Positions 2,039 through 14,614 of a DNA stretch of 64,000 nucleotides are shown here, piece after piece; the first letter of the stretch is position 1, and every line of letters starts with the position of its first letter. The stretch spans positions 7,688,001-7,752,000 of the forward strand of contig NZ_JBCJKP010000001.1 in assembly GCF_039503195.1 (NCBI RefSeq), written 5' to 3'. Source of the stretch: Streptomyces mirabilis. Lineage in GTDB: Bacteria > Actinomycetota > Actinomycetes > Streptomycetales > Streptomycetaceae. The notes beneath the pieces are model-generated. The model saw only the letters and a list, made by a program, of their open reading frames with translations. It made no database searches and was not told the origin of the DNA. The position numbers and the translations under genes were made by a program.

Positions 2039-2100
2039 CAACTCGCCCGTCTCCCGTCGATCCACGGGTGAACAGGCGTCCGGATGGTCAGGATGGAGGC

Positions 2101-3330
2101 ATGGGATTCCATGTCGACTCCGAGGCCGGGCGGCTGCGCCGCGTCATCCTGCACAGACCCGACCTCGAGCTCAAGAGGCTCACCCCCAGCAACAAGGACG
2201 CCCTGCTCTTCGACGACGTGCTGTGGGTGCGCCGGGCCCGGGCGGAGCACGACGGGTTCGCGGACGTGTTGCGCGACCGCGGGGTCACCGTCCATCTCTT
2301 CGGCGACCTGCTCGCCGAAGCACTGGAGATCCCGGTGGCCAGATCGCTCGTCCTGGACCGGGTCTTCGACGAGAAGGAGTACGGGCCGCTCGCCACCGAC
2401 CATCTCCGGGCGGCCTTCGAGACCCTGCCCGTCCCGGAGCTGGCGGCCGCGCTGGTCGGCGGGATGACCAAACGGGAGTTCCTGGACGCGCACCCGGAGC
2501 CGACCTCGGTGCGCTTCCATGTCATGGACCTCGACGACTTCCTCCTCGGCCCGCTCCCCAATCACCTCTTCACCCGGGACACCTCCGCCTGGATCTACGA
2601 CGGGGTGTCCATCAACGCCATGCGCTGGCCCGCGCGACAGCGGGAGACCGTGCACTTCGAGGCGATCTACCGGCACCATCCGCTCTTCCGTGACGAGCAC
2701 TTCAACCTCTGGTCGGAGGGGCAGGCGGACTACCCGTCCACCATCGAGGGCGGTGACGTGCTCGTCATCGGCAACGGCGCGGTGCTCATCGGCATGAGTG
2801 AACGGACGACGCCGCAGGCAGTCGAGATGCTCGCGCACAAGCTGTTCGCCGCCGGGTCGGCCCGTACGATCGTGGCGCTCGACATGCCCAAGCGGCGGGC
2901 CCTCATGCACCTCGACACCGTGATGACGATGGTCGACGGCGACACCTTCACCCAGTACGCGGGGCTCGGCATGCTCCGCTCGTACACCATCGAACCGGGC
3001 TCGGGGGACAAGGAGCTGAAGGTCACCGACCATCCGCCGGAGCACATGCACCGGGCGATCGCGGCGGCGCTGGGGTTGAGCGAGATCCGGGTGCTGACCG
3101 CGACGCAGGATGTGCACGCGGCGGAGCGGGAGCAGTGGGACGACGGATGCAACGTCCTCGCGGTGGAGCCTGGGGTCGTCGTCGCCTATGAGCGGAACGT
3201 GACCACCAACACGCATCTGCGGAAGCAGGGCATCGAGGTGATCGAGATTCCGGGGAGTGAGCTGGGGCGGGGGCGGGGTGGGCCTCGGTGTATGAGCTGT
3301 CCGGTGGAAAGGGCGGCGGTGGGGGTGTGA
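2101..3330 (+). CDS. arcA: Arginine deiminase
   Basis: Hydrolyses L-arginine to citrulline and ammonia in the cytoplasm. The 409-residue length is typical. Visible family motifs are the N-terminal [33 protein letters not shown], the catalytic-histidine region MHLDTVMTM and the C-terminal PRCMSCP, whose first Cys (about residue 397) is the expected nucleophile. I chose ATG 2101 because AGGA at 2090-2093 is 7 bases upstream and the product begins [15 protein letters not shown]; an in-frame GTG at 2068 lacks a ribosome site. It is followed 165 bases later by ornithine carbamoyltransferase and then a permease. No carbamate kinase is in the window. Confidence 0.93.
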
Positions 3331-3353
3331 TCTCGGGTGCGGGTGGGTGAGGG

Positions 3354-3390
3354 TTGGTCGCGCAGTTCCCCGCACCCCTGAAGGTGCGCT
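3354..3390 (+). repeat. Dispersed intergenic repeat, copy 1
   Basis: Contains GTCGCGCAGTTCCCCGC followed by CCCCTGAAGGTGCGCT. The same core occurs at 46703-46740 and 53752-53795, and in reverse at 57512-57548. Each copy lies between genes. Elements of this type are common in Streptomyces intergenic DNA; their role is unknown. Confidence 0.7.
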
Positions 3391-3415
3391 GTCCCCGGGG
3401 TCCACGAAGAGGGCC

Positions 3416-3443
3416 CGTATAGAAATGTGGAGCATCGTATAGA
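3416..3443 (+). promoter_or_regulatory. Direct repeat in argF leader
   Basis: CGTATAGA occurs at 3416-3423 and again at 3436-3443, 20 bp apart (about two helical turns), 50-80 bases ahead of the argF start. Either copy could supply a TATAGA -10 element, and the spacing suits a repressor or activator such as ArgR. I do not see a clean ARG box, so the assignment is open. Confidence 0.3.
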
Positions 3444-3495
3444 CTTCCACTCGCCCTTTTGTTCGTCCCCGTTCTCGCATCCCTGGAGCGCCCCC

Positions 3496-4530
3496 ATGGC
3501 GACAGTCCCGACCGCCCTCGCCGGACGCCACTTCCTCAAAGAGCTGGACTTCACCGAGGAGGAGTTTCGCGGTCTGATCGAGCTGGCCGCCGAGCTCAAG
3601 GCGGCCAAGAAGGCCGGGGCCGAGACGCAGCACCTGCGGGGCAGGAACATCGCGCTGATCTTCGAGAAGACCTCGACCCGTACGCGCTGCGCGTTCGAGG
3701 TCGCCGCCGCGGACCAGGGCGCGTCGACGACGTATCTGGACCCGTCCGGTTCGCAGATAGGCCACAAGGAGTCCGTGAAGGACACCGCGCGTGTGCTCGG
3801 CCGGATGTTCGACGCGATCGAGTACCGGGGTGACAGCCAGGCCTCCGTCGAGGAGCTGGCCGCGTACGCCGGAGTGCCCGTCTACAACGGTCTGACCGAT
3901 GACTGGCACCCCACCCAGATGCTCGCCGACGTGCTCACCATGACCGAGCACTGCGACAAGCCGCTCGGTGGGATCGCCTTCGCCTACCTGGGTGACGCCC
4001 GTTTCAACATGGGCAACTCCTACCTGGTCACCGGCGCGCTCCTCGGCATGGACGTCCGGATCGTCGCCCCGCAGGCCTACTGGCCCGCCGAGGAGATCGT
4101 CGCCGAGGCCCGCAAGCTCGCCGAGAGCAACGGCGGGCGCGTCACCCTCACCGAGCACCTCGGCGAGGGCGTCCACGGCGCCGACTTCGTCGCCACCGAC
4201 GTCTGGGTCTCGATGGGCGAGCCCAAGGAGGTGTGGGACGAGCGCATCGCCGCGCTGTCCCCGTACGCCGTGACCATGGACGTGCTGCGCGCCACCGGCA
4301 ACCCGGACGTGAAGTTCCTGCACTGCCTGCCGGCCTTCCACGACCTGGGCACCAAGGTCGGCCGCGAGATCCACGAGACCCACGGCCTCGACTCGCTGGA
4401 GGTCACCGACGAGGTGTTCGAGTCGGCGCACTCGGTCGTCTTCGACGAGGCCGAGAACCGGCTGCACACCATCAAGGCGATCATGGTCGCCACCCTGGGC
4501 CGACCGGGAATCCCCGAGGTCCTGGCCTGA
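3496..4530 (+). CDS. argF: Ornithine carbamoyltransferase
   Basis: Interconverts citrulline plus phosphate with ornithine plus carbamoyl phosphate. The 344-residue protein shows the carbamoyl-phosphate motif [11 protein letters not shown] near residue 60, HPTQMLAD in the middle, and the ornithine-site loop HCLPAFHD near residue 276. ATG 3496 is preceded by GGAG at 3485-3488. Its position next to arginine deiminase suggests a catabolic role (arcB-like). The same family also serves biosynthesis, and sequence alone does not separate them. The APC permease starts about 50 bases downstream and is likely co-transcribed. Confidence 0.92.
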
Positions 4531-4582
4531 CGGAGGTCCCCGCAGGCCTTATCCTGACCGGCGGTCCGGAGCCACCCCTTCC

Positions 4583-6100
4583 GTGACCACCGTGCGACCG
4601 ACCCCGTCGCACCCCGCACCACCGGAAATGAGCACCACCCGCATGTCCGCTCCACGCATCAAGTCCCCCCAGCTGCTGATGGCCGAATCAGGCGCCGACC
4701 GCGAAGGTCATGGCCTCAAGCGGACCATGGGTCTCTTCCAGCTCATCTGCTTCGGCGTCGGCGCGATCGTCGGCACCGGAATCTTCGTCGGGCTCTCCGA
4801 CTCGGTCGCACAGGCCGGACCCGCCGTGGTCGTGTCGTTCATCCTCGCGGCGATCACCTGCGTCTTCACCGCGTTCTCCTTCGCCGAGCTCGGCGGCGCG
4901 ATCCCGGTCTCCGGATCCTCGTACTCCTTCGCCTACGCGGGACTGGGCGAGGGCACGGCCTTCCTCGTCGGCTGGTGTCTGCTCCTGGAGTACGGCGTCT
5001 CCGTGTCGGCCGTGGCGGTCGGCTGGAGCCAGTACGTCAACGAACTGCTGCACAGCCTCATGGGCGTGCAGCTGCCCGCCGCGCTCTCGGCCGGCCCGTC
5101 CGACGGCGGGATCGTCAACCTTCCCGCGGTCATCGTGATCGCCCTGGCCTCGGTCCTGCTGATCCGCGGGGTGCGCGAGAGCGCCCGGGCGACCGCGGCC
5201 ATGGCCGTGCTGAAGCTCGTCGTGCTCGTCGTCTTCTGCGCGATCGGGTTCAGCGCCTTCAAGCACGGCAACCTCACGCCGTTCTCCCCGGCCGGGCTGG
5301 GAGGTATCGGCGCGGGCACCACGGCTGCCTTCTTCTCGTACATCGGCTTCGACGCGATCACCACCGCCGGCGAGGAGGCCAAGGACCCCCGCCGCAACAT
5401 CCCGATCGCCATCCTGGTCTGCATCGGTCTGGTCACGCTGCTGTACTGCGCGGTGGCCCTCGCGGCGATCGGCGCCGTCGGCGGCGACGCGGTCGCCGGG
5501 CGGCCCGCCGCGCTGTCGTACGTCGTCAACGTGGTCACCGGCTCCACGGTCGGCGCCGGGGTCGTCGCGTTCGGAGCGGTCGTCGCCATCGCCTCGGTCG
5601 TGCTCGCGGTGATGTACGGACAGACCCGCATCCTCATGTCCATGTCCCGTGACGGGCTCGTGCCGCGCGTCTTCGAGAAGATCTCGCCGAGGACCTCGAC
5701 ACCGGTCGCGGGAACCCTGATCGTCGCCATCGTCTTCGCCGTCCCGGCGGCCTTCGCCCCGCTCGACGCCGTCGTCAACCTGACGACGATCGGCACGCTC
5801 GCCACGATGGCCGCCGTCAATGTCGCGGTGATCGCGCTGCGGCGCCGGCAACCGGGTCTTGCCAGGACGTTCCGGGTGCCGCTCTACCCCGTGGTGCCGC
5901 TGCTCGGCATCGGCTTCTGTCTGTACCTGATGTACGAGACGGGCTGGACGACCTGGGTCCAGTTCGTGTGCTTCCTGGCGGCCGGCTTCCTCGTGTACGT
6001 GCTCTACGGGCGCCGCAACTCCCGGCTGGCAGTGGCTGGAGCCGCTCCCGGCGCCGAGGTCACGCCGGACGCCGCTGAGCGGGCACCACAGGCAGTCTGA
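4583..6100 (+). CDS. APC-family amino acid permease
   Basis: Integral membrane transporter of the APC superfamily, about 12 membrane segments. The family hallmark FGVGAIVGTGIFVGLS forms the broken first helix near residues 58-73, and AAFFSYIGFDAITTAGEEAKDPRRN is the usual mid-protein motif (about 255-280). The tail after residue 480 is Ala-rich and variable. GTG 4583 gives 505 residues with GGAG 11 bases upstream; ATG 4628 or 4643 would shorten the N-terminus and are equally possible. Placement after arcA and argF suggests uptake or exchange of arginine, ornithine or another cationic amino acid. The 3' end overlaps the convergent ATP-binding protein gene by 41 bases. Confidence 0.85.
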   Translation: MTTVRPTPSHPAPPEMSTTRMSAPRIKSPQLLMAESGADREGHGLKRTMGLFQLICFGVGAIVGTGIFVGLSDSVAQAGPAVVVSFILAAITCVFTAFSFAELGGAIPVSGSSYSFAYAGLGEGTAFLVGWCLLLEYGVSVSAVAVGWSQYVNELLHSLMGVQLPAALSAGPSDGGIVNLPAVIVIALASVLLIRGVRESARATAAMAVLKLVVLVVFCAIGFSAFKHGNLTPFSPAGLGGIGAGTTAAFFSYIGFDAITTAGEEAKDPRRNIPIAILVCIGLVTLLYCAVALAAIGAVGGDAVAGRPAALSYVVNVVTGSTVGAGVVAFGAVVAIASVVLAVMYGQTRILMSMSRDGLVPRVFEKISPRTSTPVAGTLIVAIVFAVPAAFAPLDAVVNLTTIGTLATMAAVNVAVIALRRRQPGLARTFRVPLYPVVPLLGIGFCLYLMYETGWTTWVQFVCFLAAGFLVYVLYGRRNSRLAVAGAAPGAEVTPDAAERAPQAV

Positions 6101-6512: not shown

Positions 6513-6856
6513 GGAGCAGGCTGTCCTGCTTTCAACCTGAGGAATGGTACGGCGCGGCCGGACGGAGGCGTCGGGCGGGCGCTTTCCAGGACATTCGGTG
6601 GGCGCCCTCCCAGGACGTTCGGCTCGGCATCAGGACCCGTACCCAGCCCAACGCCTGCCTCCCGCGAGGTGCTCCCGCCGTTACGGGGCTATCGAGAACC
6701 CGTGACTCGGTGACGGGAAACGGTCACTTCACGACCGGGTTATTGCGTGGTCGTGACGACAGTCACAGAGTGGTGATAACTTCGTGGAGTAACGACGACC
6801 GCCGTCCGGCGCCCTGTGGCGCGGACCGCCGCCCCCGTCCGAGGAGGCCGCCCGTC
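6513..6856. other. Divergent intergenic region
   Basis: 344 bases between the RsbW-like gene and the enoyl-CoA hydratase gene. It contains no convincing coding frame. The left half is featureless apart from the short inverted repeat GCAGG/CCTGC near the RsbW-like start; the right third holds the shared catabolic promoter motif at 6753-6780. Confidence 0.6.
6753..6780 (+). promoter_or_regulatory. Shared catabolic-cluster motif, copy A
   Basis: GTGACGACAGTCA at 6753-6765, then nine bases, then GATAAC at 6775-6780. The identical 13-mer with the same nine-base gap to GATAGC occurs at 12810-12837 in the other promoter region of the cluster. TGAC/GTCA gives internal dyad symmetry, as expected for an operator; GATAAC may be a -10 element. 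PaaX, encoded between the two sites, is a plausible binder. Confidence 0.55.
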
Positions 6857-7684
6857 ATGAGTCCCTTCACCGGCTCCGCCGCCCGCACCTCCGACTGGCA
6901 GCACCTGAGGTGCGAGGTCGCCGACGGGGTCGCCACGGTCACCCTGGCCCGCCCCGAGAAACTCAACGCCCTCACCTTCGGCGCCTACGCCGACCTGCGC
7001 GATCTGCTCGCCGAGCTCTCCCGTGAGCGGTCGGTGCGGGCGCTGGTGCTGGCGGGGGAGGGGCGCGGCTTCTGCTCCGGCGGCGACGTCGACGAGATCA
7101 TCGGCGCGACCTTGTCCATGGACACCGCCCAGCTCCTCGACTTCAACCGGATGACCGGGCAGGTCGTGCGGACCGTACGGGAGTGCCCGTTCCCGGTGAT
7201 CGCGGCGGTGCACGGGGTCGCGGCGGGCGCCGGAGCCGTCCTCGCCCTGGCCGCCGACTTCCGGGTGGCCGACCCGAGCGCCCGGTTCGCCTTCCTCTTC
7301 ACCCGCGTCGGACTGTCCGGCGGCGACATGGGCGCCGCCTATCTGCTGCCCCGGGTCGTCGGGCTCGGTCACGCGACCCGGCTGCTGATGCTCGGCGAAC
7401 CGGTGCGCGCGCCCGAGGCCGAGCGGATCGGTCTGATCAGCGAGCTGGCCGACGAGGGCGACGCGGACGAGGCCGCCCAGCGACTGGCCCGCCGCCTGGC
7501 CGAGGGCCCGGCTCTCGCGTACGCCCAGACCAAGGCCCTGCTCACCGCCGAACTGGACATGCCCCTCGCCGCCTCCGTCGAGCTCGACGCCTCGACCCAG
7601 GCCCTCCTGATGACCGGCGAGGACTACGCCGAGTTCCATGCGGCGTTCACGGAGAAGCGCGCGCCGAAGTGGCGGGGGCGATAG
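6857..7684 (+). CDS. Enoyl-CoA hydratase/isomerase family protein
   Basis: A 275-residue crotonase-fold protein. It shows the CoA-binding loop LARPEKLNALT (about 32-42), the first oxyanion-hole region GEGRGFCSGGDVDE (about 70-85) and the second HGVAAGAGAVLALAADFRVA (about 120-140). The acid at the usual E144 site of crotonase is less obvious, so hydratase or ring-hydrolase activity cannot be told apart. ATG 6857 has GAGGAGG nine bases upstream. It is directly followed by the 2-aminobenzoyl-CoA monooxygenase/reductase-like gene, in which it shares an operon. I infer that it acts on the CoA-thioester ring intermediate. Confidence 0.85.
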   Translation: MSPFTGSAARTSDWQHLRCEVADGVATVTLARPEKLNALTFGAYADLRDLLAELSRERSVRALVLAGEGRGFCSGGDVDEIIGATLSMDTAQLLDFNRMTGQVVRTVRECPFPVIAAVHGVAAGAGAVLALAADFRVADPSARFAFLFTRVGLSGGDMGAAYLLPRVVGLGHATRLLMLGEPVRAPEAERIGLISELADEGDADEAAQRLARRLAEGPALAYAQTKALLTAELDMPLAASVELDASTQALLMTGEDYAEFHAAFTEKRAPKWRGR

Positions 7685-7686
7685 CC

Positions 7687-9978
7687 GTGGCGACGCGGAC
7701 GCGCGCGTCTGTGCGTGTCGCCGTCATCGGCGGCGGTCCCGGCGGGCTGTACGCCGCCGCGCTGCTCAAGCGCCTCGACCCGGGCCGTGAGGTCACCGTC
7801 TGGGAGCGCAACGCCCCCGACGACACCTTCGGCTTCGGTGTCGTGCTCTCCGACGAGACGCTCGGCGGGATCGAGCACGCCGACCCGGTGGTGTACGCGG
7901 CGCTCCAGGACGAGTTGGTGCGCTGGGACGACATCGACATCGTGCACCGAGGCGTGCGCAACACCTCCGGAGGCCACGGCTTCGCGGCACTCGGCCGGCG
8001 CCGGCTCCTGGAGATCCTGCACGAGCGCTGCCGCTCGCTCGGCGTCGAGCTGCGCTTCCGGGCCGAGGCCCCGCCGGTCGCAGAACTGATGACGGTGTAC
8101 GACCTGGTCGTCGCCGCCGACGGGGTGCACAGCCCGACCCGGGCCGCGTACGCGGAGGCGTTCGGACCGTCGGTCGAGGAGCACCGGTGCCGTTACATCT
8201 GGCTCGCCGCCGACTTCGCCTTCGACTCCTTCCGCTTCGAGATCGTGGAGACCGAGCACGGCGTGATGCAGCTGCACGGCTACCCGTACGCGGCCGATGC
8301 CTCCACCGTCATCGTCGAGATGCGCGAAGAGGTGTGGCGGGCGGCCGGTTTCGCGGACCTCGACGAACAGGGGTCCGTCGAGCTCTGCGGCAAGATCTTC
8401 ACGGACGCGCTCGGCGGGCGGCAACTGCGGTCCAACAAGTCGACGTGGACCACCTTCCGTACGGTGGTCAACGACCGCTGGTCCCACGGCAATCTGGTCC
8501 TCCTCGGCGACGCCGCGCACACCGCGCACTTCTCCATCGGCTCCGGCACCAAGCTCGCCGTCGAGGACGCGCTCGCGCTGGCCGCCTGCCTGGAGGAGCG
8601 GCCCACCCTCGACGAGGCACTCGCCGCGTACGAGGAGGAGCGGCGCCCTGTCGTCGCGTCCACCCAGCGGGCCGCGCGGGCCAGTCTGGAGTGGTTCGAG
8701 AACCTGGGGCTGTATCTCCACCAGCCCGCCCGGCAGTTCGCCTTCAACCTCCTCACGCGCAGCCGCCGCGTCACGCACGACAACCTGCGGCTGCGGGACG
8801 CGCACTTCACGGCGGCGGTCGAGCGCGAGTTCGGCTGCCCGCCCGGCACACCGCCGATGTTCACCCCGTTCCGGCTGCGCGGTCTGACCCTGCGCAACCG
8901 GGTCGTGGTCTCACCGATGGACATGTACTCGGCCGTGGACGGCGTCCCCGGCGACTTCCACCTCGTCCACCTGGGCGCACGGGCGCTCGGCGGCGCGGGC
9001 CTGGTGATGACCGAGATGGTGTGTGTCAGCGCCGAGGGCCGCATCACACCCGGCTGCGCCGGCCTCTACTCACACCGGCAGGCCGAGTCCTGGCGGCGGA
9101 TCATCCGCTTCGTGCACGCCCAGGCACCCGGCACCGCGATCGGCGTCCAGCTCGGACACTCCGGCCGCAAGGGCTCCACGAAGCTGATGTGGGAGGGCAT
9201 GGACGAACCCCTGGAGGAGGGCAACTGGCCGCTCGTGGCCGCCTCCCCGATCCCGTACGGACCGCGCAGCCAGACCCCCCGGCAGCTGTGCCGAGCCCAA
9301 CTCACCGACATCCGCGAGCAGTTCGCGGCCGCCACCTGGCGTGCCGTCCGCTGCGGCTTCGACCTCCTCGAACTGCACTGCGCCCACGGCTACCTCCTCT
9401 CCGGCTTCCTCTCACCGCTCACCAACCGGCGCACCGACGCCTACGGCGGCTCGCTGGAACGCAGACTGCGCTTCCCGCTGGAGGTCTTCGACGCCGTACG
9501 GGCCGTGTGGCCGGAGGAGCGGCCCATGACCGTCCGTATCTCCGCCACCGACTGGGCCGAGGGCGGCAACACCGGGGACGAGGGCGTGGCGATCGCCCGG
9601 GCCTTCGCGGCGCACGGCGCCGACGCGGTCGACGTGTCGACCGGGCAGGTGGTCGCCGACGAACAGCCCGAGTACGGCCGGTCGTTCCAGACCCCGTTCG
9701 CCGACCGGATCCGCCACGAGACCGGCCTCCCCGTGATCGCCGTCGGCGCGATCTCCTCCTGGGACGACGTCAACTCCCTGATCCTGGCCGGGCGTACGGA
9801 CCTGTGCGCACTCGCCCGGCCGCATCTCTACGACCCGCACTGGACGCTGCACGCGGCGGCCGAGCAGGGGTACGAGGGTCCGGGCGTCGCCTGGCCCAAG
9901 CCCTACCGCGCGGGCAGCCGCCGCCCGCAGACCGGACGCATGGACGCCCCCAAGCCCCGGCTCTCACTGGGGACCTGA
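7687..9978 (+). CDS. Bifunctional aromatic acyl-CoA monooxygenase/OYE reductase (2-aminobenzoyl-CoA monooxygenase/reductase type)
   Basis: A 763-residue fusion. Residues about 1-385 are a class A flavin monooxygenase with GGGPGGLYAA (FAD Rossmann), DLVVAADGVHSPTR and NLVLLGDAAHTAHFSIGSG (flavin ribityl motif). Residues about 395-750 are an old-yellow-enzyme TIM barrel with FTPFRLRGLTLRNRVVVSPM, HGYLLSGFLSPLTNRRTDAYG and a late ALARPHLYDP. This hybrid layout is that of 2-aminobenzoyl-CoA monooxygenase/reductase (Azoarcus evansii), which hydroxylates and then reduces the ring. Databases often label relatives salicylyl-CoA 5-hydroxylase/oxidoreductase. GTG 7687 lies two bases after the hydratase stop; GTG 7711 is an alternative start. 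Confidence 0.85.
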   Translation: MATRTRASVRVAVIGGGPGGLYAAALLKRLDPGREVTVWERNAPDDTFGFGVVLSDETLGGIEHADPVVYAALQDELVRWDDIDIVHRGVRNTSGGHGFAALGRRRLLEILHERCRSLGVELRFRAEAPPVAELMTVYDLVVAADGVHSPTRAAYAEAFGPSVEEHRCRYIWLAADFAFDSFRFEIVETEHGVMQLHGYPYAADASTVIVEMREEVWRAAGFADLDEQGSVELCGKIFTDALGGRQLRSNKSTWTTFRTVVNDRWSHGNLVLLGDAAHTAHFSIGSGTKLAVEDALALAACLEERPTLDEALAAYEEERRPVVASTQRAARASLEWFENLGLYLHQPARQFAFNLLTRSRRVTHDNLRLRDAHFTAAVEREFGCPPGTPPMFTPFRLRGLTLRNRVVVSPMDMYSAVDGVPGDFHLVHLGARALGGAGLVMTEMVCVSAEGRITPGCAGLYSHRQAESWRRIIRFVHAQAPGTAIGVQLGHSGRKGSTKLMWEGMDEPLEEGNWPLVAASPIPYGPRSQTPRQLCRAQLTDIREQFAAATWRAVRCGFDLLELHCAHGYLLSGFLSPLTNRRTDAYGGSLERRLRFPLEVFDAVRAVWPEERPMTVRISATDWAEGGNTGDEGVAIARAFAAHGADAVDVSTGQVVADEQPEYGRSFQTPFADRIRHETGLPVIAVGAISSWDDVNSLILAGRTDLCALARPHLYDPHWTLHAAAEQGYEGPGVAWPKPYRAGSRRPQTGRMDAPKPRLSLGT

Positions 9979-10007
9979 GGGCGCGGGGAGGAGCGGCCCG
10001 ACGGGAG

Positions 10008-10163
10008 AGTGCCCGCCGTCGGTGTCGAGCCGTCCACCGGGTCGACGAGGAGGAACGCACCGGTGCGGCGTACGTCCGCGTAGTGGTCGAGCGCGAGCGG
10101 CTCGGCGGTGCGCGGGGTGATGCGCCCGAGGTCGTTCACTGCGATGAGGGTGCCCTTGGCGCC
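10008..10163 (-). pseudogene. cysN: C-terminal relic of sulfate adenylyltransferase subunit 1 (cysN)
   Basis: Reverse-strand translation gives about 52 residues, GAKGTLIAVNDLGRITPRTA followed by EPLALDHYADVRRTGAFLLV and DPVDGSTPTAG. This pattern (NDLGR..RTAEPLALD.YAD.RRTGAFLLVDP..G.TL.AG) matches the C-terminal barrel of actinobacterial CysN as I know it. An in-frame stop sits directly upstream (10164-10166), and no GTPase domain is present. It is therefore a fragment, wedged between the monooxygenase/reductase gene and paaX. The final Met-Val of CysN is lost. Confidence 0.55.
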
Positions 10164-10179
10164 TCATGATGTACCGAGG

Positions 10180-11001
10180 TCACACGTCAGTGGGTTCGGT
10201 GAAGCTCGCCCCCGCGTCCCGCAGCCGCTCGTGCAGCGCCCGGAACACGGCGGCCGAGCGCGCGCCCGGCCAGTCCTCGGGCAGCAGCGCGGCAGGCAGC
10301 CCCGGGTCGGCGTACGGGAGGTGGCGCCAGGTGTCCAGGGCGAGCAGATAGTCGCGGTACGCCTCCTCGGGCGGGGTGTCCGCGCGCCGCCGCCAGTCGC
10401 GCAGCACGGTCGCGTGCTGGTCGAGGAAGGCCTCGTGCTGCTTGGCGATCGCCGCCAGGTCCCACCAGCGCGCGACCGCGTCCGCCGTCGCCGCGAAGCC
10501 CAGGTGCTCCCCGCGGAACAGCTCCACGTAAGGGTCGAGCCGCAGCCGCGCCAGGGTGTGCCGGGTCTCCTCGTAGAGCCGCGCGGGGGCGAGCCAGACG
10601 CCGGGGGCCGCCGTCCCGAAGCCGAGACCGGCGAGGCGTGAGCGCAGTACGTGCCGCTTCTGCCGCTCGGACTCCGGCACGGAGAAGACGGCGAGCACCC
10701 AGCCCTCGTCCTCGGGGGGCGCCGCCGCGTACACCCGCCGGTCGCCGTCCTCCAGCAGTTGGCGGGCGTCCGGCGACAGCGCGTACCCCGCGCCGCCCGC
10801 CGCCGTACGGGCCGGTTCGAGCAGTCCGCGGCGCTTGAGCCGGGACACCGACGAGCGTACCGAGGGCGCGTCGACGCCGACCGCGGCGAGGAGCCGGATC
10901 AACTCGGCCACCGGCACGGGGCCGGGCATGAAACGGCCGTACGCGCCGTAGAACGTGACGATGAGGGACCGGGGGGCGTGCTGCTCTGACACGTTGATCA
11001 C
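10180..11001 (-). CDS. PaaX-family transcriptional regulator
   Basis: A 273-residue protein with the PaaX layout. The N-terminal winged helix (about 10-80) includes RSLIVTFYGAYGRF, VDAPSVRSSVSRLKRRGLL and GAGYALSPDARQLLEDGDRR. The central domain contains VFSVPESERQKRHVLRSRLAGLGFG and PGVWLAPARL. The C-terminal domain has YRDYLLALDTWRHLPYADPGLPAALLPEDWPG. PaaX proteins repress aromatic-CoA catabolic genes and are relieved by an aryl-CoA ligand. The gene lies 15 bases after the CoA-ligase gene on the same strand, so the two are probably co-transcribed. GTG 11001 or GTG 10992 could be the start; neither has a strong ribosome site. I infer that it controls the surrounding cluster. Confidence 0.88.
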   Translation of the reverse strand: MINVSEQHAPRSLIVTFYGAYGRFMPGPVPVAELIRLLAAVGVDAPSVRSSVSRLKRRGLLEPARTAAGGAGYALSPDARQLLEDGDRRVYAAAPPEDEGWVLAVFSVPESERQKRHVLRSRLAGLGFGTAAPGVWLAPARLYEETRHTLARLRLDPYVELFRGEHLGFAATADAVARWWDLAAIAKQHEAFLDQHATVLRDWRRRADTPPEEAYRDYLLALDTWRHLPYADPGLPAALLPEDWPGARSAAVFRALHERLRDAGASFTEPTDV

Positions 11002-11021
11002 TCTAGTGCGCGAAGATCACT
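10996..11021. promoter_or_regulatory. GATCACT direct repeats at the paaX start
   Basis: GATCACT occurs at 10996-11002 and 11015-11021, 19 bp apart, straddling the ligase stop and paaX start. Read on the reverse strand the segment contains AGTGATCTTCGCG, which resembles the TGATTCGCG-type PaaX operator of enteric bacteria. Autoregulation of paaX is inferred only. Confidence 0.35.
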
Positions 11022-12699
11022 TGGGACCGCCGCCGGTGGACAACTCACCCTCCGGCGCGGCCGGCGACGGGCTCTCCCCGCTCGCCGGCGGAGCGTCCGC
11101 ACGCAGCCGGAAGCGTTGCAGCTTTCCGGTCGCCGTGCGCGGCAGCGAGTCCAGGAAGACGAACTCGCGAGGGCATTTGTACGGCGCCAGCTCGGACTTG
11201 AGGAAGGCGCGCAGCGCCTCGGCGTCCTTGCGTGCTCCCTCCCTGAGGACCGCGTACGCCACCACCACCTGCCCGCGCGCCTCGTCGGGCCGCCCCACGA
11301 CCGCCGTCTCGACCACGTCCGGGTGGCGCAGCAGGGCGTCCTCGACCTCGGGCCCGGCGATGTTGTACCCCGCCGAGACGATCATGTCATCGGCGCGGGC
11401 GACATACCGGAAGTAGCCGTCGGGGTCGCGCACATAGGTGTCGCCGGTGATGTTCCAGCCGCGGCGCACGTACTCCCGCTGCCGTGGGTCGGTGAGATAG
11501 CGGCAGCCCACCGGGCCGCGCACCGCGAGCAGTCCGGGCTCGCCGTCCGGCACCGGCGTCCCCTCGGGGTCGACCACCCGCGCCTGCCACCCCGGTACGG
11601 GGACGCCCGTCGTCCCGGGGCGGATGTGCTCGTCGGCCGCGGAGATGAAGATGTGCAGCAGTTCGGTGGCGCCGATGCCGTTGATGATGCGCAGTCCGGT
11701 GCGGCTGTGCCAGGCACGCCAGGTCGCGGCGGGCAGGTTCTCGCCCGCGGAGACACAGCGCCGCAGCGAGCTCGTGTCGTGCTCGTCCAGCTCCGCCAGC
11801 ATCGCCCGGTAGGCGGTCGGTGCGGTGAACAGCACCGAGACGCGGTGCTCGGTGATCGCGGGCAACAGCTGCTTGGGGCCCGCCTGTTCGAGCAGCAGGG
11901 AGCAGGCGCCGGCGCGCATCGGGAAGACGACGAGGCCGCCGAGCCCGAAGGTGAAGCCCAGCGGGGGACTGCCGGTGAAGACGTCGTCGTCGCGGGGCCG
12001 CAGCACGTGCTTCGAGAAGGTGTCCGCTATGGCCAGCACATCCCGGTGGAAGTGCACACAGCCTTTGGGGCGGCCGGTGGTGCCGGAGGTGAAGGCGATC
12101 AGCGCGACGTCGTCGGCGGCCGTGTCGACCGCCGTGAACGGCTCGTCCGGGGCGCCCGTGATGCGCAGCAGCAGGTCGTCGGGCGCGTCCCCGCCGTACG
12201 TCGTGATCCGCAGCCCCGGGATCTCCGCCTTCGCCAGGTCGTCGACCGACCGTACGTCGCACAGCGCGTGGGTGACGTGGGCGATGGCGCACATGGTGGT
12301 CAGCTCGTGCGGGCGCTGCTGGGCGAGCACCGTGACGGCGACCCCGCCCGCCTTCAGGACCGCCAGCCAGCACGCGGCGAGCCAGGGTGTGGTGGGCCCG
12401 CGCAGCAGCACCCGGTTGCCGGGCACGACGCCCAGTTCGGTGGTCAGGACGTGGGCGATCCGGTCCACCCGGGCGAGGAGGTCCCCGTACGTCCACGGAT
12501 CGCCGGACGGCGTGCGGAAGGCAGGGCGCTGCGGTGGCTTGCCGCCGAGGAGTTCGGCGGCGCAGTTCAGCCGTTCGGGGTAGTGCAGCTCGGGCAGGTC
12601 GAAGGGGAGTTCGGGCCACTGCTCCGGGGGCGGGAGGTGGTCGCGGGCGAAGGTGTCGACGTGGGCCGAGGTCGTCGGCTCCAGGGTGTCGCCGTCCAT
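11017..12699 (-). CDS. Benzoate/2-aminobenzoate-type CoA ligase (AMP-forming)
   Basis: A 560-residue ANL-superfamily enzyme. It contains the P-loop IAFTSGTTGRPKGCVHFH (about 205-222), the A5 motif NGIGATELLHIFISA (about 355-370), YFRYVARADDMIVSAGYNIAGPEVE (A8 hinge, about 440-465) and the late lysine motif LPRTATGKLQRFRLR. The GIGATELLHIFIS form is characteristic of benzoate and 2-aminobenzoate CoA ligases rather than of acetyl-CoA synthetases. It would activate the aromatic acid with ATP and CoA. The start is ATG 12699. It is divergent from the acyl-CoA dehydrogenase across the 12810 motif and is followed by paaX. Anthranilate is inferred as substrate from the neighbouring monooxygenase/reductase. 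Confidence 0.85.
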   Translation of the reverse strand: MDGDTLEPTTSAHVDTFARDHLPPPEQWPELPFDLPELHYPERLNCAAELLGGKPPQRPAFRTPSGDPWTYGDLLARVDRIAHVLTTELGVVPGNRVLLRGPTTPWLAACWLAVLKAGGVAVTVLAQQRPHELTTMCAIAHVTHALCDVRSVDDLAKAEIPGLRITTYGGDAPDDLLLRITGAPDEPFTAVDTAADDVALIAFTSGTTGRPKGCVHFHRDVLAIADTFSKHVLRPRDDDVFTGSPPLGFTFGLGGLVVFPMRAGACSLLLEQAGPKQLLPAITEHRVSVLFTAPTAYRAMLAELDEHDTSSLRRCVSAGENLPAATWRAWHSRTGLRIINGIGATELLHIFISAADEHIRPGTTGVPVPGWQARVVDPEGTPVPDGEPGLLAVRGPVGCRYLTDPRQREYVRRGWNITGDTYVRDPDGYFRYVARADDMIVSAGYNIAGPEVEDALLRHPDVVETAVVGRPDEARGQVVVAYAVLREGARKDAEALRAFLKSELAPYKCPREFVFLDSLPRTATGKLQRFRLRADAPPASGESPSPAAPEGELSTGGGPK

Positions 12700-12809
12700 G
12701 GAGGTTCGCCCCCTTGTCGTGGTGGGCTCGCAGCGCTCAGCTCGTGGCTCTCGGTGCTCAGGTCTCGGTGCTCTCGGCTCGCGTCTCGCACAAGGAGCGT
12801 ATCGTGTTG

Positions 12810-12837
12810 GTGACGACAGTCAATGTCTCGCGATAGC
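12810..12837 (+). promoter_or_regulatory. Shared catabolic-cluster motif, copy B
   Basis: GTGACGACAGTCA at 12810-12822, nine bases, then GATAGC at 12832-12837, repeating the arrangement at 6753-6780. It lies between the divergent CoA-ligase and acyl-CoA dehydrogenase genes, so one site could control both arms. Confidence 0.55.
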
Positions 12838-12876
12838 CTGGGGTCCCGCAGTCCGACGGCGGAGAGGGAACCGGCA

Positions 12877-14193
12877 ATGACCGCATTCTCGCTCGATCCG
12901 GTACAGACCGCCTGGTGTGCCGAACTGCGCGCGCTGGCCGAGGAGCGGTTGCGCCCGCTGGCGGAGAAGGGCGAGCCGGGTCACGTCAACCGCGCTCTTG
13001 TCGCCGAGTTGGGCCGGCTCGGGCTGCTCGCCCGCCTGTTCACCTCGGGCGCGCTCGATCTGTGCCTGATGCGGGAGTCCTTGGCGCACGGTTGCACCGA
13101 GGCCGAGACGGCGCTCGCCCTGCAAGGCCTCGGTGCGCATCCGGTGCACGCGTACGGCACCCGGGCACAGCGCGAGCGCTGGCTGCCCCGGGTCGCGGAC
13201 GGGAGCGCGGTGGCCGCGTTCGCGCTCAGCGAGCCGGGCGCGGGCTCGGACGCGGCGGCGCTGGCGCTCCGCGCGGACCGGGACGACGCACGGGCGCCCA
13301 CGTCCGCACCGGGGCCCGGCGAAGCCGCACCCGCGGCCCGCGGGGCCTCGTCCCCGGCCGCTGGAGTCGCGTCTGCGGTCCCCGGAACCCTGCCCGTGGC
13401 CCCCGGTTCCTCGCCCGCGGGTCCCGGGCCGTCCGTCGTCGAGGCGCAGGAGTCGCCCGTTGCCGAGCGGGACGGCTGGGGGAGCTGGCGGCTCAGTGGG
13501 GAGAAGTGCTGGATCTCCAACGCGCCCGAGGCCGACTTCTACACCGTGTTCGCGCGGACCACCCCGGGCGCCGGAGCCCGTGGCGTCACCGCCTTCCTGG
13601 TGCCCGCCGACCGGCCGGGCCTCACCGGCACCCCGCTCGACATGCTCTCCCCGCACCCCATCGGCGCCCTCGCCTTCGACGCCGTACCGGTGACGGCGGA
13701 CGACGTGCTCGGCGAGCCCGACCGCGGTTTCCGGGTCGCGATGCACACCCTCAACCTCTTCCGCCCGAGCGTGGGCGCCTTCGCGGTCGGCATGGCGGAG
13801 GCGGCCCTCGCGGCGACGCTCACCCACACGGCAGCGCGTGAGGCGTTCGGCGGCAGGCTGAAGGACCTGCAGACGGTGGCTCACCAGGTCGCCGAGATGG
13901 CGATGCGTACGGAGGCGGCCCGCCTGATGGTCTACGCGGCGGCGGCGGCGTACGACGAAGGGGCCCCGGACGTGCCCCGGCGCGCGGCGATGGCGAAGCT
14001 GCTGGCGACCGAGACGGCCCAGTACGTGGTCGACGCGGCGGTCCAACTGCACGGCGCCCGTGCCCTGCGCCGCGGCCATCTCCTCGAACACCTCTACCGG
14101 GAGGTCCGCGCGCCCCGTATCTACGAAGGCGCCAGCGAGGTCCAGCGGGCGGTCATCGCCAAGGAGCTGTACGCGTCGGTGGAGGCCTTGTGA
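12877..14193 (+). CDS. Acyl-CoA dehydrogenase family protein with a Pro/Ala/Ser-rich insertion
   Basis: A 438-residue flavoprotein. It shows AAFALSEPGAGSDAAAL (about 112-129, acyl-CoA and FAD contact), GEKCWISNAPEADFYTVFART and the C-terminal IYEGASEVQRAVIAKELY containing the Glu expected as catalytic base. Between residues about 137 and 198 there is a low-complexity Pro/Ala/Ser/Gly stretch absent from normal family members, which pass directly from the GSD segment to GEKxWISN. ATG 12877 has GGAGAGGGA upstream. RidA follows 22 bases after the stop, so the two are co-transcribed. Proposed role: dehydrogenation of the reduced ring thioester in anthranilate breakdown. Confidence 0.85.
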   Translation: MTAFSLDPVQTAWCAELRALAEERLRPLAEKGEPGHVNRALVAELGRLGLLARLFTSGALDLCLMRESLAHGCTEAETALALQGLGAHPVHAYGTRAQRERWLPRVADGSAVAAFALSEPGAGSDAAALALRADRDDARAPTSAPGPGEAAPAARGASSPAAGVASAVPGTLPVAPGSSPAGPGPSVVEAQESPVAERDGWGSWRLSGEKCWISNAPEADFYTVFARTTPGAGARGVTAFLVPADRPGLTGTPLDMLSPHPIGALAFDAVPVTADDVLGEPDRGFRVAMHTLNLFRPSVGAFAVGMAEAALAATLTHTAAREAFGGRLKDLQTVAHQVAEMAMRTEAARLMVYAAAAAYDEGAPDVPRRAAMAKLLATETAQYVVDAAVQLHGARALRRGHLLEHLYREVRAPRIYEGASEVQRAVIAKELYASVEAL

Positions 14194-14215
14194 GCGTCGA
14201 GAGCCTGGAGGTCCA

Positions 14216-14614
14216 GTGAGCACCGAGCGCGTCAACCCGCCCGAACTCTCCCCGCCCACCGGCTTCTCGCACGCCGTCGTCGCCACCGGCACCCGCGTGG
14301 TCTTCCTGGCGGGCCAGACCGCGCTGGACACGGACGGGAAGGTGGTCGGCGAGACCCTCCCGGAGCAGTTCGAGAAGGCGCTGACCAATCTGCTGACGGC
14401 GTTGCGGGCCGCGGGCGGCACCCCGGCCGACCTCGCGCGGGTCACGGTCTATGCCACCGATGTCGCGGACTACCGTGCGCGGGCCCCCGAACTCGGCCGC
14501 GTCTGGCGGCGGTTGGCGGGACGGAACTATCCGGCGATGGCCGTCGTCGGCGCCGCCCGCCTCTGGGACGAACAGGCCCTGGTCGAACTCGACGGTTTCG
14601 CGGTGCTGCCCTAG
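14216..14614 (+). CDS. RidA/YjgF-family enamine/imine deaminase
   Basis: A 132-residue protein with the complete RidA fold pattern: N-terminal GFSHAVVATGTRVVFLAGQT, central QFEKALTNLLTALRAAGGTPADL, then VTVYATDVADYRARAPEL and a C-terminal AARLWDEQALVELDGFAVL that retains the conserved Arg. RidA proteins hydrolyse enamines and imines and release ammonia. GTG 14216 has GGAGG at 14207-14211. Coupling to the acyl-CoA dehydrogenase suggests a pathway-specific deamination of the amino group carried by 2-aminobenzoyl-CoA intermediates rather than general housekeeping. Confidence 0.88.
   Translation: MSTERVNPPELSPPTGFSHAVVATGTRVVFLAGQTALDTDGKVVGETLPEQFEKALTNLLTALRAAGGTPADLARVTVYATDVADYRARAPELGRVWRRLAGRNYPAMAVVGAARLWDEQALVELDGFAVLP

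Follow-up and report, generated by a model that had tools for sequence, protein, structure and literature searches.

A Met-type Rid protein accompanies the dearomatizing 2-aminobenzoyl-CoA monooxygenase/reductase and probably acts on its product in Streptomyces mirabilis

What does a small Rid family protein do in a gene cluster that appears suited to the degradation of anthranilate? The question is raised by six genes in a 64,000-nucleotide stretch of the Streptomyces mirabilis genome (RefSeq assembly GCF_039503195.1, contig NZ_JBCJKP010000001.1, positions 7,688,001 to 7,752,000; hereafter the window), which together span positions 6857 to 14614. All six proteins named in an earlier note made from the DNA letters alone were recovered by family matches: an aryl-CoA ligase, a hybrid 2-aminobenzoyl-CoA monooxygenase/reductase (ACMR), a crotonase family protein (ECH), an acyl-CoA dehydrogenase (ACAD), a Rid protein, and a PaaX family regulator. 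The genes lie in three blocks, with ECH-ACMR and ACAD-Rid on the plus strand and ligase-PaaX on the minus strand, and chance does not account for this grouping, as dozens of other genomes show the same set. We consider it probable that the locus is an inducible anthranilate catabolic cluster in which a Rid carrying methionine at the usual arginine position (a Met-type Rid) would hydrolyze the ACMR product.

The Rid protein of the window has the Rid fold and a PF01042 domain, but its designation as RidA in the earlier note needs correction. An archetypal RidA (2-iminobutanoate/2-iminopropanoate deaminase) was ruled out, as the catalytic arginine is absent and the score against TIGR00004, the NCBI RidA-type model, was 42.6 bits, below the cut-off of 106.25. 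A PAM motif replaces PAR, placing Met108 where RidA has its catalytic arginine (Arg105 in TdcF), and in a HMMER alignment to 2dyy the Met108 column fell on arginine. Of 69 ACMR-linked Rids from several phyla, 65 had methionine at this position, against none of 20 weaker Rid relatives (20 fetched out of 29 listed). Glu124 was invariant in the Rid alignment, A3. Met108 is also unlike the tryptophan found at the arginine position in Rid4 and Rid7, the two subfamilies compared; in Rid5 and Rid6 this position is variable. The substrate of 2-aminomuconate deaminase is a free acid, not a CoA thioester. This enzyme, a remote relative of the window Rid (PDB 6izh; E value, 1e-5 with profile A2), is a Rid protein for which a defined catabolic step is already known (PMC4433059 and PMC6449761). 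On balance, we lean slightly toward Met-type Rids forming a separate Rid subfamily that would deaminate an enamine CoA thioester.

ACMR loci were collected from genome contigs (the best 80 of 593 confirmed), plasmids (n = 8), and the window, giving 89 loci, ∼30 of which come from close streptomycete relatives and hence are not independent cases. A Rid gene was present in 68 of the 89 loci and in 54 of the 62 that had at least 6 kb of flank on each side. The eight Rid-less loci among these 62 were L097, L099, L102, and L116, all of a gentisate type, together with L087, L051, L132, and L053. Rid was cut at the edge of the fetched stretch in L063 and L087, with a piece of it visible at the L087 edge. 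The L051 record has it at a distance of 9.7 kb, and the L132 genome at ∼12 kb, provided that C1 is the same contig; L053 was thus left as the one true exception on its replicon. Three recurrent layouts were identified, each with variations: ECH-ACMR/PaaX-ligase/ACAD-Rid in streptomycetes; FAH-cupin-TesB-ligase-ACMR, accompanied by Rid and in most cases by PaaX, in a few streptomycetes and in the other Actinomycetota; and ACMR-SDR-MarR-ECH-ACAD-ligase-Rid in Pseudomonadota and single loci from Chloroflexota and Gemmatimonadota.

In a survey of 296 Actinomycetota genomes, drawn regardless of Rid, ACMR (E values up to 1e-200) was found in 36 and the strong Rid type, detected with a profile trained on linked Rids, in 41. 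All 36 were shared (Fisher P, 2.8e-41, a guide only, as related genomes are not independent events). The two genes were on the same contig in 25 of these genomes, about 1.6 to 6.6 kb apart, and on separate contigs in 11; of the five Rid-only genomes, three carried pieces of ACMR. Weaker Rid relatives did not follow ACMR, which was found in only 4 of the 25 genomes carrying them (Fisher P, 0.36). For G383 and G348, a gentisate-type copy was found first and tblastn then located an anthranilate set next to their Rid. Sampling of 150 genomes from the window's genus found the hybrid enzyme, whichever its type, in 135. In the 11.1-Mb source genome, the window ACMR was the sole match above the family cut-off; there were eight Rid matches, the window Rid included. 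This co-occurrence is what backs the catabolic role that had been claimed for Rid.

The four gentisate-type loci show which form of ACMR the Rid accompanies. They carry genes for a gentisate 1,2-dioxygenase (520 bits to 3bu7, its closest chain of known structure), an FAH-family hydrolase, and nitrilase-like and Amdase-family proteins, a layout we take to be the salicylyl-CoA to gentisate route, as in the Streptomyces sdg genes. Together with 12 further sets, they resemble the window in their hybrid enzyme (56 to 60% identity) and, mostly, in having a ligase and PaaX; they differ in the gentisate dioxygenase, in mostly having the FAH, nitrilase-like, and Amdase genes, and in lacking both Rid within the stretch and a tyrosine of the OYE reductase domain. 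In L116, a single 746-residue frame (7726 to 9966) joins an aryl-CoA ligase to a 4HBT thioesterase domain. The window ACMR is a fusion of PF01494 (residues 9 to 327) and PF00724 (residues 391 to 724) and retains H564, H567, and Y569 of the HxxHxY motif, whose residue roles are those of OYE enzymes. Tyr569 was conserved in 86 of 90 aligned rows (the window counted twice) and lost only in the four gentisate-type rows, where it was replaced by H, H, F, and Q. The five columns lost in all four of these rows all fell within the OYE domain (P, 0.044); as this is weak alone, the argument for loss of the reductase rests on a replication with 40 regions of the window's genus.

These regions, fetched with ∼7 kb on each side, comprised 11 complete and 1 partial low-scoring copies and 28 high-scoring copies of ACMR; three other partial low-scoring copies were excluded. 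All 12 low-scoring copies had a gentisate dioxygenase and lacked both Tyr569 and, within the stretch, Rid. All 28 high-scoring copies kept H564, H567, and Y569, and a Met-type Rid was in the stretch for 24, 7 to 10 kb away for 3, and 1.76 Mb away for 1. Around this last Rid (L267; G388:C1:4518000-4534000), none of the searched cluster genes were found. In total, all 16 ACMR copies accompanied by a clear gentisate dioxygenase gene had lost Tyr569 and were without Rid in the stretch examined, and therefore Rid accompanies the ACMR that keeps an intact, dearomatizing reductase. Several genomes hold both types. Two loci break the clean two-type picture. L268, the second ACMR of the L102 genome (G300:C11:34000-53500), has His for Tyr569 along with a ligase and PaaX, with neither Rid nor gentisate dioxygenase within 19.5 kb, and is perhaps a third kind. 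In L129, Tyr569 is retained, yet the far contig end bears a partial match resembling gentisate dioxygenase, which is weak (33% over 168 residues); the contig stops there, short of allowing Rid presence to be judged. The gentisate type would use salicylate, or may represent a route via 5-hydroxyanthranilate to gentisate. Scores against NF006101, named for salicylyl-CoA 5-hydroxylase, were 1235, 1229, 1316, and 1380 bits for four anthranilate-type enzymes and 1037 for one of gentisate type (cut-off, 1078); complete gentisate-type copies ranged from 1031 to 1132, some passing the cut-off. The model name thus covers both types and fits the higher-scoring group badly.

The Rid and ACMR genes also appear to share a control element. 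Exactly two exact copies of the operator-like sequence GTGACGACAGTCA occur in the window, one before ECH and one in the ligase/ACAD region (Table 1). When no more than one mismatch was allowed, 42 of 56 streptomycete loci carried it upstream of ECH, and 41 of the 51 having an ACAD match carried it upstream of that gene; six other matches occurred in 1.03 Mb, and four shuffled versions yielded none. A looser search (up to two mismatches) gave four window matches where 2.34 would be expected, and the case for the operator is therefore limited to the exact pair and the conservation of that pair. This predicted 13-bp operator ties the Rid promoter to that of ACMR, and the PaaX family protein is the probable repressor of both. 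The pAL1-type loci have a related palindrome, TGACGNNCGTCA, in the interval that separates Rid from FAH (exact in L047 and L048, one mismatch in L046); candidate sites of this kind occur at various places in other Actinomycetota loci. TGACGNNCGTCA would be the operator of MeqR2, a PaaX-type repressor of Arthrobacter sp. Rue61a responding to anthraniloyl-CoA. The PaaX-like proteins encoded on pAL1 are involved in regulating quinaldine degradation (PMC3534580).

Cotranscription of Rid, as proposed in the earlier note, stood in part. The Rid gene begins 22 bases past the ACAD gene with a GGAGG site, but it does not follow the monooxygenase gene, which lies 2 bases behind ECH in a separate unit, one of three. 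The ACAD start is more likely at 12877 than at 12823. In the window ACAD, the N-terminal and middle domains are separated by 78 residues rich in Ala, Pro, and Ser; the corresponding segment measures 14 to 15 residues in 7 of 10 other pattern-matching ACAD homologues and 22 to 30 in the remainder. Just upstream of the cluster (2068 to 6100) are open reading frames (ORFs) that, judged by eye, resemble arginine deiminase, ornithine carbamoyltransferase, and an amino acid permease.

Table 1. Cluster genes and operator-like sites, numbered from the first base of the window
Feature	Position	Strand	Details
Operator-like 13-mer GTGACGACAGTCA	6753-6765	+	arms TGAC/GTCA; 91 bases upstream of the start codon of ECH
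ECH, enoyl-CoA hydratase/isomerase (crotonase) family	6857-7684	+	NF006107, 398 bits (cut-off 330); closest solved structure 3g64
ACMR, FAD monooxygenase plus OYE reductase	7687-9978	+	763 residues; NF006101, 1235 bits (cut-off 1078); FAD_binding_3 and Oxidored_FMN
PaaX family regulator	10180-11001	-	PF07848, PF20803, PF08223
AMP-forming aryl-CoA ligase	11017-12699	-	TIGR02262, 338 bits (below cut-off 375); 56% identity to pAL1 ligase
Second exact copy of GTGACGACAGTCA	12810-12822	+	divergent ligase/ACAD-Rid promoter region
ACAD, acyl-CoA dehydrogenase	12877-14193	+	listed ORF from 12823; ATG at 12877 with GGAGAGG ribosome site
Rid family protein	14216-14614	+	132 residues; PF01042, 65.7 bits; Met108, Glu124, Phe at the Tyr position

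In the pathway we propose, the ligase would convert anthranilate to 2-aminobenzoyl-CoA. What ACMR is known to release is itself an enamine in conjugation with the thioester, and the Met-type Rid would convert it to 2,5-dioxocyclohexane-1-carboxyl-CoA and ammonia (C7H9NO3-CoA + water → C7H8O4-CoA + ammonia). Ring opening and oxidation of this beta-keto thioester would fall to the crotonase family protein and ACAD, with PaaX governing both promoters via the shared operator. The arginine with which RidA binds the carboxylate of 2-aminoacrylate-type substrates (PMC4960622) would be dispensable because the substrate here presents its carboxyl group as a CoA thioester; the arginine position is held instead by residues that are mostly hydrophobic, methionine being the usual one. 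The earlier note had an enamine or imine formed by a dehydrogenation preceding Rid, a view not supported here, given both the nature of the ACMR product and the presence of Rid in clusters without ACAD. Of the 68 Rid-bearing loci, 17 had no visible ECH or ACAD, and tblastn with six ECH/ACAD-type queries (E value, 1e-5; no coverage filter) found neither in them, some of the 17 being short stretches, above all L114 and L122; 13 had an FAH-type lower pathway. Rid is the partner common to two lower pathways, ECH plus ACAD or FAH plus cupin plus thioesterase. As it is shared by both, it would act on the last common intermediate, and its substrate is most likely the ACMR product itself and not a later dehydrogenation product.

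In Arthrobacter sp. Rue61a, C7H8O4-CoA was unique to cells grown on anthranilate and was interpreted by the authors of that study as possibly a cyclohexanedione-carboxyl-CoA (PMC3534580), which would be the deaminated product expected from the Rid step. The window crotonase aligned with 1,2-epoxyphenylacetyl-CoA isomerase across the active-site region. By our reading of this alignment, it presumably lacks the two glutamates of true hydratases, and a retro-Claisen ring opening is possible for it.

Several observations weigh against hydrolysis of the ACMR product by Rid in an anthranilate pathway. The amino product of ACMR is cited as unstable, undergoing deamination in acid (PMC3534580), so that the step may be partly spontaneous and might not strictly require an enzyme. 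An Arg-to-Ala variant of Arabidopsis RidA did not complement a ridA mutant (PMC4960622). Rid4 to Rid7 proteins, which lack the arginine, are thought unable to hydrolyze imines, and Niehaus et al. described their functions as completely unknown (PMC4433059). Six of 30 strong-group actinobacterial Rids have Ile, Val, or Thr instead of Met, and the literature searched contained no assay or knockout of any Met-type Rid. L053, on plasmid p1 of Streptomyces sp. BHT-5-2, is of the anthranilate type and has ECH, ACMR, PaaX, ligase, and ACAD, yet a search of its 2.8-Mb replicon found no Met-type Rid. Among the ligases, no column across phyla split the gentisate-type from the Rid-type enzymes. In streptomycetes alone, 29 columns differed (14 gentisate-type versus 49 ECH-type rows), a pattern read as descent and not substrate because, at many of these columns, the gentisate-type residue also occurs in the 14 pAL1-type rows.

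The acid lability of the ACMR product (PMC3534580) also feeds the strongest alternative, which we judge unlikely: that ammonia is lost spontaneously or on another enzyme, with Rid clearing a side product or serving in a chaperone-like manner. Rid proteins are known for damage pre-emption, and Rids lacking the arginine are without shown hydrolase activity (PMC4433059), although the near-obligate co-occurrence (36/36), the ACMR-linked residue signature, and the shared operator exceed what general clean-up would call for. Less probable still is a reading in which Rid takes the ACMR product, or the keto form of it, as its ligand but catalyzes a different step, for instance tautomerization or opening of the beta-keto thioester ring by hydrolysis. 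A YjgF-like domain is also found within the chorismatase XanB2 (PMC6449761), Glu124 is invariant, and the ring-opening enzymes named above are candidates; set against this, the candidate ring-opening genes vary by cluster (crotonase or FAH family), suggesting that those open the ring.

The anthranilate pathway itself was likewise proposed in the earlier note and is supported here, because the reductase site is intact, Rid is present, and no gentisate dioxygenase was found nearby (zero matches among the ORFs of window positions 1 to 26000). The ligase substrate could not be read from its sequence, as its score fell below the cut-off of TIGR02262, a benzoate-CoA ligase family; its homologue beside ACMR on pAL1 has proven anthranilate-CoA ligase activity (PMC3534580), and the window ligase is probably a 2-aminobenzoate-CoA ligase. 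Plasmid pAL1 of strain Rue61a (NC_009453) resembles the window in its AMP ligase, ACMR (61% identity), Rid with PAM, and PaaX regulators, and differs in having FAH-family, cupin, and TesB-like genes where the window has the crotonase family and ACAD genes. The aerobic 2-aminobenzoyl-CoA clusters of Azoarcus evansii studied by Schuehle et al. in 2001 reportedly contain ligase, ACMR, and beta-oxidation genes like the window but are said to differ in a MarR-like regulator and an ABC transport protein. Matches to tryptophan 2,3-dioxygenase and kynureninase adjoin one another in the S. mirabilis genome (C1:5642202-5644200), a pair predicted to be its anthranilate source; a tryptophan dioxygenase gene lies inside the ACMR locus of Ruegeria (L049) and Aquamicrobium (L132), which points to tryptophan-derived anthranilate. 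Degradation of salicylate or benzoate, with the hybrid as a salicylyl-CoA 5-hydroxylase, is very improbable: the window enzyme does pass the cut-off of the model so named, but it keeps the Tyr569 lost from all 16 lower-scoring copies linked to gentisate dioxygenase, and Rue61a, which uses the anthranilate-type enzyme, failed to grow when given salicylate, gentisate, or benzoate (PMC3534580).

The cluster and the chemistry of ACMR are already known. The 2001 study reportedly recorded a Rid homologue colocated with ACMR under another name, its abstract being said to list a "putative translation inhibitor," an old Rid family name. No paper joining ACMR with RidA or a Rid deaminase was identified in the literature searched; most subscription papers were outside the search, and absence is unproven. 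As far as these searches show, the residue signature of the ACMR-linked Rid, its near-obligate pairing with the dearomatizing ACMR, the shared operator, and the joint loss of Rid and the reductase tyrosine in the gentisate type are new. For annotation, we suggest that an OYE tyrosine together with Rid denotes the anthranilate type, and a lost tyrosine, usually with gentisate dioxygenase, the other. In a 2026 paper, BlastKOALA was the basis for crediting two Massilia strains with an sdgC route for salicylate (PMC13215587); another Massilia (L118) carries an anthranilate-type ACMR with Rid, and sdgC-type calls thus deserve a check. Tryptophan breakdown via anthraniloyl-CoA monooxygenase/reductase was omitted by the GapMind authors because too little was known (PMC9007349). 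The Met-type Rid joins two gaps, the step after ACMR and the function of Rids lacking the arginine, and one purified protein could test both. If Met-type Rids do form a subfamily that deaminates an enamine CoA thioester, the arginine of RidA would serve as a grip for the carboxylate and take no part in the chemistry itself, and a name could be put to the third step of the anthraniloyl-CoA pathway, so far missing, in bacteria of several phyla.

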